Below, one piece after another: positions 13,169 through 48,910 of a DNA stretch of 64,000 nt. Source of the stretch: Gammaproteobacteria bacterium (GTDB lineage Bacteria > Pseudomonadota > Gammaproteobacteria > Nevskiales > Nevskiaceae); assembly GCA_026398815.1 (NCBI GenBank), contig JAPLSA010000031.1:1-64000 (forward strand), read 5' to 3'. The notes beneath the pieces are model-generated. The model did not search any database. It was not told the origin of the DNA and saw only the letters and a list, made by a program, of their open reading frames with translations. The position numbers were made by a program, and so were the translations under genes. Position 1 is the first letter of the stretch; every line of letters begins with the position of its first letter.

Positions 13169-16009
<2,841 letters not shown>

Positions 16010-16033: not shown

Positions 16034-16063
16034 AAGGCCGATCCCCCCGGATCGGCCTTTTTT
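16034..16063 (+). terminator. Rho-independent terminator of polA
   Basis: AAGGCCGATCC-CCCC-GGATCGGCCTTTTTT. Confidence 0.9.
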
Positions 16064-16221
16064 ACCTCGCCCCGCTTACCAACCCCAGAATTCGGTACTG
16101 CATTCCAAAAAACAATTTCTTGCCATTCAATCGCTTGCGCTCAATCCGGCGGCTTCTACGCGATTTTCGATGCCGGCCATCGAACTTATTCCACGCCCGG
16201 CGAGTCTGATATTGCGAATGG

Positions 16222-16328
16222 TGACTCCCTTCCCATTCCCCGCCCCCACTCCCTGGGCGGGAAGTCCGGTTCCCCCAAGCCGGCACTCGTTGCCTGGCAG
16301 GTTCCCCCGACCTGCTGGGCATTTTTTT
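16222..16328 (+). ncRNA. Candidate sX13-like trans-acting sRNA with C-rich hairpin loops
   Basis: Three consecutive hairpins: CCCGCCC-ccactccct-GGGCGGG (16239-16261), CCGGTT-ccccc-AAgCCGG (16266-16283), GCAGGT-tcccccg-ACCTGC (16297-16315) followed by a T7 tract; polA-engB intergenic position. 5' end estimated. Confidence 0.7.
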
Positions 16329-16393: not shown

Positions 16394-17053
16394 TCAGACC
16401 GACGTGACGATAGTGCCGTCGACCGGCTCGGCAAGGCCGAGCCACTGATCCAGCTTCGCGCGCACTTCCTCGACACCGGTTCGGGCGGTCGACGAGAACG
16501 CCTGCACGGTCATGCCGGGATCGAAGTCCTGCAGTTCGCGACGAACTTTCAGCACGGTGTTCTTGCCGGCACCGAAACTGAGCTTGTCGGCCTTGGTCAG
16601 CAGGATGTGTGCCGACAGCAGCCGGTCACGGCACCATTCCAGCATCTGTACGTCGAGTTCGGTCAGCGGGTGGCGGATGTCCATCACCACGATCACGCCC
16701 TTGAGCGTCGTGCGTTGCTCGACATAGCTGCCGACCAGCGCACCCCAGGCATTGCGAACAGCGATCGGCACCTGTGCGAAGCCGTAGCCGGGCAGGTCGA
16801 CGAGCCGTGCGCGGCCGTCGAGATCGAAGACATTGAGCAGCTGCGTGCGGCCCGGGGTCTTCGACACCCGCGCCAGACCGGTCTGCTGGCAGATCAGGTT
16901 GAGTGCACTGGATTTGCCGGCGTTGGAACGCCCCACCAATGCGGCTTCCGGACGCCCGTCGTCCGGCAGCTGTGCCAGCCGGGCTGCCGACAGCACGAAG
17001 CGCGCGCGGGCGTAGAAATTGGGCGCAGCGGCTTTCGTGGTGTCCAGGGTCAT
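16394..17053 (-). CDS. engB: Ribosome biogenesis GTPase EngB/YsxC
   Basis: GRSNAGKSSALN, TPGRTQLLN, DLPGYGFA, LLTKADKL. Confidence 0.95.
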   Translation of the reverse strand: MTLDTTKAAAPNFYARARFVLSAARLAQLPDDGRPEAALVGRSNAGKSSALNLICQQTGLARVSKTPGRTQLLNVFDLDGRARLVDLPGYGFAQVPIAVRNAWGALVGSYVEQRTTLKGVIVVMDIRHPLTELDVQMLEWCRDRLLSAHILLTKADKLSFGAGKNTVLKVRRELQDFDPGMTVQAFSSTARTGVEEVRAKLDQWLGLAEPVDGTIVTSV

Positions 17054-17133
17054 CGTGTAAGATTCGCGCTCCAATCGCTCATTATGCGCGTAGTGCGGAT
17101 GTCGCTACGCGCGCTTGCCTGCCGGAGTGTTTC

Positions 17134-48521: not shown

Positions 48522-48589
48522 CTGGAGTCTCCCGTGGCCTGCGTCCCCGCAAGCGCACTGATCGGAATACCTGCACGCGGATGCATGCA

Positions 48590-48815
48590 GACCCGTTCCA
48601 GGCCGGTCTCCGGACTCATGGGCGAAGGCGCGATGCCGCGCGTGCCTTCCTTCGACGCCTTCCCGGATCGGGACACGATCCAGTGGCGGTGGGCCGAAGC
48701 ACTCCCATCTACCGTTGCGGGGGCAGTGCCGGGCTTGTCGATCCCGCGTGGGGGGCGACGCACCGGCTTCCCGTTTAACCCTGACACCGTGTCGAGCGGG
48801 GTTCAGGGCACCTGC
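48590..48815 (-). promoter_or_regulatory. Cobalamin (AdoCbl) riboswitch upstream of btuB
   Basis: Reverse-strand conserved blocks: GGCCGGTCTCCGGACTCATGGGCGAAGG, GCCTTCCCGGATCGG..CAGTGGC, TACCGTTGCGGGGGCAGTGCCGG, GCACCGGCTTCCCGTTTAACCC (as read on + strand). Confidence 0.92.
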
Positions 48816-48910
48816 GAACGGCAATATGGTATCGCACCGTACGAATTGCCTGCCGGGCGGGCCGCCGGGCACGGTTATCATTCGCCCCCGCGTTGCCCTG
48901 GAGTCCGCGC

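Follow-up and report, generated by a model that had tools for sequence, protein, structure and literature searches.

The polA-engB locus and its small RNA gene

The window (the whole 64,000-nucleotide stretch of Nevskiaceae DNA that was analysed) was found to contain a gene for a small RNA (sRNA) of about 113 nt, located between polA and the convergent gene engB, which encodes a 50S-ribosome-binding GTPase. The gene, its structure, strand and conservation, the class of its promoter (by comparison with rpoH) and its expansion in copy number were computed here. The features of the locus are:

13169..16009, plus strand: polA, the 5′ neighbour of the sRNA gene (Pfam DNA_pol_A, E = 2e-159)
16034-16059: intrinsic terminator of polA, after the end of the gene, its own and separate from the sRNA
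16182..16187, plus strand: -35 element GAACTT of a sigmaE/AlgU-type promoter, at near-constant spacing in nearly all Nevskiaceae copies
16205..16210, plus strand: -10 element TCTGAT, 17 nt past the -35 element, from comparison across copies
16216..16328, plus strand: sRNA, about 113 nt (fold and covariation; covariance model R1 recovers 16216-16328)
16216..16238, plus strand: hairpin 1, GAAUGG-UGACUCCCUUC-CCAUUC, loop UGACUCCCUUC; double changes in 4 of 6 pairs (U-A to C-G, for example)
16239..16261, plus strand: hairpin 2, loop CCACUCCCU; compensatory changes in 5 of 7 pairs
16263..16287, plus strand: hairpin 3, loop UUCCCCCAA; its core stem, 16266-16283, is conserved (fold and covariation)
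16291-16321, plus strand: hairpin 4, the intrinsic terminator, with a CCCCC loop; compensatory changes in 9 of 13 pairs
16322-16328, plus strand: T7 tail of the sRNA terminator (the hairpin 4 element as a whole spans 16291..16328)
16394..17074, minus strand: engB, the convergent 3′ neighbour (Pfam MMR_HSR1, E = 6e-16, and EngB family matches)

The 3′ end of the sRNA lies 66 bp from the engB stop codon, and a survey of the neighbouring genes placed a cytochrome c gene next after engB. An earlier note on this DNA had described an sRNA gene between polA and engB with C-rich loops, a T7 tail and a separate polA terminator; the sequence, hairpins, loops and tail are as described, the terminator was located at 16034-16059, and the flanking genes were identified by Pfam. 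The three hairpins that it placed at 16222-16328 are present, but there are four in all: alignment with relatives revealed that the RNA extends further in the 5′ direction, to a start at ~16216, and includes an additional hairpin that had been missed. The promoter and the structure together would place the 5′ end at ~16216. Elsewhere, the window carries a cobalamin riboswitch (48584-48830, minus strand, 99.7 bits).

Secondary structure and covariation

Folding of the RNA from the 16216 start gave a minimum free energy of -54 kcal/mol (z = -5.59), and none of 200 shuffled sequences folded equally well; for the interval without hairpin 1, as first delimited, the z-score was -3.85. Covariation was assessed in 44 copies (42 distinct) from the Nevskiaceae and other Nevskiales. 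In this set, 95.0% of the cells were paired and 21 of the 32 pairs showed changes on both sides, values that were matched by none of 500 shuffles, while sliding the partner by a single column lowered the pairing to 44-52%. Each of the four helices has its own covariation support. Across the class, 92.6% of the cells were paired and 30 of 31 pairs showed double changes, a figure that leans towards the model to which the alignment was fitted. Many U-G pairs were observed on the plus strand (21 and 15 sequences at two of the pairs, for example); since the opposite strand would have C-A mismatches at these positions, the RNA is assigned to the plus strand. By these sequence-based measures, the sRNA is conserved and structured far beyond chance. 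Conservation and covariation of the hairpins in relatives had been named beforehand as the test by which the proposal might be refuted; both were found, and the proposal was not refuted.

The loops share a simple vocabulary. CUCCCU occurs in the loops of hairpins 1 and 2, and CCCCC in those of hairpins 3 and 4. Within the family, loop conservation is highest in the CUCCCU core of hairpin 2, with CTCCCT in 55 of 60 class-wide copies, and CCC is kept in the hairpin 3 loop in 48 of the 60 and in the hairpin 4 loop in 45. The hairpin 2 loop, (C)CUCCCU, resembles the anti-Shine-Dalgarno sequence CCUCC.

Relation to named RNA families

No Rfam family reached its own cut-off at the sRNA interval of the window. 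The closest model was anti-hemB (RF02837; 41.1 bits, E = 4.1e-8, gathering cut-off 49.5), to which the sRNA aligns over the full length of the model (positions 1-81). Hairpins 2-4 follow one another in the same way in both RNAs, starting with the CUCCCUG loop and ending with the terminator, whereas hairpin 1 is absent from anti-hemB (Burkholderia RNA 7, ncS04), as the Rfam model begins after it. The positions also differ: in Burkholderia, anti-hemB is found beside hemB or opposite it, whereas hemB was not recognised among the window neighbours of the sRNA gene (polA, engB and the cytochrome c gene). The anti-hemB cut-off is, however, exceeded by loci of the present family that lie at polA/engB elsewhere in the class. 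No promoter class for anti-hemB was described in the literature found.

The sRNA had been called sX13-like in the earlier note. Like sX13 of Xanthomonas, it lies downstream of polA (sRNA start ~16216, polA end 16009), and the two share a length of about 115 nt, stacked hairpins, CCCC loops and a C-rich terminator loop; the CCCCC of hairpins 3 and 4 agrees with the at least four C residues per hairpin loop that characterise sX13. The likeness thus holds for the locus and for the logic of the loops, but not for formal membership. The Rfam search gave a distant match to sX13 (RF02232; 24.7 bits, E = 0.016, gathering cut-off 50), anti-hemB was the better model, and the window sRNA differs in its additional hairpin and in its GAACTT promoter, in place of which the sX13 loci L117 and L118 have a TATA-like -10 element. 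In the reverse direction, R1 picked up a pair of sX13 loci that follow polA, with E values near 3e-6 and 3e-5. The synteny suggested in the note for sX13 is borne out by the literature, in which this RNA is reported as exclusive to the Xanthomonadaceae and always downstream of polA (PMC3771888). It represses mRNAs with G-rich motifs via its C-rich loops, independently of Hfq, and repression requires these motifs in the target mRNA (PMC3771888). With sX13 as the precedent, the link to Hfq proposed in the earlier note would not be expected.

ErsA of Pseudomonas aeruginosa, likewise located between polA and engB, depends on sigma22, a sigmaE homologue, and represses algC by pairing at its ribosome-binding site (PMC8575079, PMC6321483). 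It folds into three stem-loops, and its unpaired domain is rich in U (PMC8575079). The window sRNA shares with ErsA/Pseudomon-1 (RF01719) the polA-engB intergenic position, and its sigmaE-type promoter motif may point to control like that of ErsA by sigma22, but it lacks the U-rich unpaired domain, and the ErsA model found no match at E up to 10 between 15900 and 16600. Weak ErsA matches were obtained at the same place in class-wide relatives (34.0 bits at L058, 32.9 at L147), and some class-wide loci matched anti-hemB, sX13 and ErsA/Pseudomon-1 at one place. Since other C-rich families also appear weakly there, the link to ErsA rests mainly on locus and promoter type, and the weak matches could stem in part from shared C-rich loops. 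Class-wide loci also cross-matched the models of alphaproteobacterial ar14, of CcsR1 and of sX11; these matches were set aside, as such loops are their probable cause. In one Pseudomonas-like genome (so identified by its RsmY), no PolA was found near engB and no recognisable sRNA was seen there. Spot 42 of enterics and Vibrio occupies the same intergenic position, but the window yielded no hit to its model at E ≤ 10. Taken together, the window sRNA is, judged by its sequence, homologous to anti-hemB and more distantly to sX13, and is a formal member of neither, nor of ErsA or Spot 42. sX13 and ErsA were mentioned together nowhere in the open literature searched, which is no proof that nobody has joined them.

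Distribution, tandem arrays and dispersed copies

Judged by named relatives of its EngB, the organism stands beside Nevskia MAGs. A DNA search returned homologues in 46 of 61 related genomes, and R1 found matches in 70 of 229 genomes sampled across the class (E ≤ 0.001). Among loci assigned to a named group, matches lie in the Woeseiaceae, the Ectothiorhodospiraceae and unplaced Gammaproteobacteria. The sX13 model found 6 in the class genomes; the anti-hemB model gave 93 matches at E ≤ 1e-4 in the class genomes, 11 above its cut-off, at places that were largely those of R1. Vibrio, Alteromonas and Shewanella gave no R1 match in the engB loci tested. In tblastn searches, most of the best loci from across the class had EngB, PolA or both no more than 1.5 kb away. 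Two loci without EngB nearby (L143 and L150) still have the cytochrome c gene found after engB in the window.

The genome of the window has a single copy at E ≤ 0.001 with R1. Across genomes, tandem rows of two to four copies are common, with promoter and terminator repeated with each copy. Four copies were counted at L022, L023 and L119/L125, three at L027 and L028, and two at L020, L021, L031, L034 and L038; arrays of three or four adjoin engB/polA (L022, L023, L125, L027, L028). Among siblings of an array, the hairpin 1 loops diverge while the hairpin 2 loop stays the same. Dispersed second copies with the same promoter were found at L155 (G010:C1) and at L163 (G012:C126), the latter beside a ychF-like gene, and in one family (L136/L139) the sRNA lies between rimO and hslV rather than at polA-engB. 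In two class relatives, matches to the cspA thermoregulator were seen just 5′ of the sRNA (L124, 956-1396; L131, 1013-1446).

The promoter and its occurrence upstream of rpoH

The E. coli sigmaE consensus is GGAACTT-N16-TCTGA/TCAAA, and a promoter of the GGAACTT-N16-TCTRA type, as expected of a sigmaE-dependent sRNA, stands directly 5′ of the RNA. Nearly every copy in the family with enough sequence has a GAACTT-like element, 16-17 nt, TCTRAT or similar, and then G(C/T)GA where the RNA begins. For GAACTT-N16/17-TCNNA, a score of 9 or more out of 10 was reached by 40 of the 54 copies taken from across the class, compared with ~1% of 70-mers drawn at random from these loci, and the motif lies mostly 30-38 nt 5′ of the RNA, at a nearly fixed distance.

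A pattern search of 21 relatives returned the sRNA copies and the upstream regions of rpoH in two genomes. rpoH, a classical sigmaE target in E. coli, was then obtained from 28 relatives, and GAACTT-N16/17-TCNNA was found 5′ of the gene in 23 of the 26 loci scanned, in several families; from these sites to the matched rpoH domain, the distance was 119-216 nt. Because the motif also precedes rpoH in relatives, the sRNA promoter is classed as sigmaE/AlgU-type. A CIRCE-like inverted repeat, TTAGCACTC-N9-GAGTGCTAA, overlaps the rpoH -10 element in much of the genus (L184-L206), which suggests joint control of rpoH by HrcA and sigmaE there. In outgroups, the sigmaE-type motif stands before the CIRCE-like repeat, and the likeness of the rpoH motif is therefore not merely that of CIRCE. 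The stricter pattern GAACTT-N15-17-TCTRA has two sites in the 4.3-Mb genome of the window, namely the sRNA promoter and one near a lipoprotein-like ORF, and was not informative.

From these comparisons, the sRNA would be transcribed by sigmaE. Alternatively, it might be a real sRNA under another ECF sigma factor, or under several sigma factors, and its role would then not be confined to envelope stress. Several ECF groups share the GAACTT motif, and about a dozen sigma-factor genes of the same genome match the RpoE model, most at lower scores. Autoregulation of rpoE, as in enterics, is a usual sign of a sigmaE regulon; it was not seen in the genus, as the aligned rpoE upstream regions (L088-L116) showed sigma70-like elements only and no GAACTT promoter. 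The TATA-like -10 element of the Xanthomonadaceae sX13 points the same way. Another sigma factor is nonetheless unlikely, since motif and spacing are identical before rpoH in relatives from several families.

Proposed function and candidate targets

The reading that we favour, and regard as reasonably likely, is that of a trans-acting sRNA, the Nevskia copy of a class-wide family anchored at polA-engB, which is induced by envelope stress and whose loops repress mRNAs with G-rich ribosome-binding sites. Rather than an isolated case, we see in it a stress regulator that has probably been overlooked. The promoter (16182-16210), the four short hairpins and the sRNA's own terminator would form a separate transcription unit, and activity of the envelope-stress sigma factor would lead to synthesis of the sRNA from it. 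At ribosome-binding sites, the exposed CUCCCU and CCCCC loops could then base-pair with sequences that are rich in G or resemble a Shine-Dalgarno sequence, and this pairing would lower translation of the target mRNAs. We infer the transcription of the sRNA, the repression of mRNAs by its loops and the identities of the targets; the repression step is carried over by analogy with sX13. MicA and RybB are sigmaE-dependent sRNAs, of a class that represses outer-membrane protein mRNAs.

The interest of the sRNA lies in its class-wide spread, stress promoter and tandem arrays more than in the single locus. sX13 has been known as a Xanthomonadaceae RNA only and anti-hemB has been filed as a Burkholderia RNA; here, anti-hemB and the Nevskia RNA, with sX13 and ErsA more loosely, are tied to one locus and architecture across the class, mostly with a stress promoter. 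We put forward, tentatively and as somewhat less than an even prospect, that one ancient polA-engB sRNA gene, fired by the envelope-stress sigma factor, underlies anti-hemB, sX13, ErsA and many unannotated lineages. If so, the near-invariant loop that resembles an anti-Shine-Dalgarno sequence would make the sRNA an arm of the sigmaE response that acts on translation throughout the class, some lineages would have amplified the sRNA into tandem arrays of diverging siblings, and the Xanthomonadaceae would have cut it loose from sigmaE. The favoured reading also offers a concrete, testable proposal for the role of polA-engB sRNAs outside enterics and Pseudomonas, and the natural multi-copy arrays allow the choice of targets by loop sequence to be studied.

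Targets were sought in 730 predicted genes (844 kb of the same genome), using a codon-model gene caller with crudely called starts. Strong duplexes (≤ -14 kcal/mol) numbered 47 for the loops and 43 for the reversed loops, no clear excess, and loop complements were not enriched at the starts of signal-peptide genes in the same 844 kb, with gene and start calls equally crude. Target prediction had been proposed in the earlier note, which supposed a regulator of many mRNAs; by duplex energy and by counts of G motifs, it yielded no enrichment, a weak negative given the crude gene starts. Around the predicted starts of one contig (C23, -30 to +12), GGGG was rarer (5%) than CCCC (18%), which could reflect a general avoidance of G-runs.

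A candidate target suggested by sequence in some relatives is the rpoH mRNA, whose repression would, tentatively, complete an incoherent feed-forward loop. Most members of the genus have GGGG or GGGGG at the rpoH ribosome-binding site, and five rpoH loci in four relatives (L188, L199, L200, L203 and L206; mostly close relatives and so not independent) show 8-10 nt of perfect complementarity to the hairpin 4 loop, a match found for 1% of genes in the window's own genome. rpoH was not found in that draft genome. These observations, together with the promoter type common to the sRNA and rpoH, would also fit a narrow regulator that acts mainly as a brake on rpoH translation, with the other matches to the C-rich loops incidental. 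We consider this restriction rather improbable: the G-run is missing in three members of the genus and in most outgroups, and conservation of the loops reaches far beyond the genus.

The near-invariant hairpin 2 loop, with its likeness to CCUCC, and the negative scan for mRNA targets would both suit an RNA that does not pair with mRNAs but titrates a partner that binds C-rich RNA, be it a protein or, through mimicry of the 16S anti-Shine-Dalgarno sequence, the ribosome; the need of the related sX13 for G-rich motifs in its target mRNAs (PMC3771888) makes this quite unlikely. It is most improbable that the RNA is a cis element only (stacked terminators, or a 3′-untranslated or antisense RNA directed at polA or at the convergent engB), as the 66 bp to the engB stop codon, the name anti-hemB of the Burkholderia relative and the two terminator-like hairpins flanking the region might suggest. 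The sRNA has its own promoter and terminator, each tandem copy has a promoter, some copies are dispersed to other genes (L155, L163, L136/L139), and the conservation seen in the loop sequences is not required for antisense action in cis.

A role as a CsrA/RsmA sponge was rejected, the loops being C-rich and without GGA. Elsewhere in the same genome, a weak match to RsmY (C15:21642-21756, L277; 32.5 bits, cut-off 57) overlaps a weak match to anti-hemB (20.9 bits), and may represent another hairpin RNA or chance.
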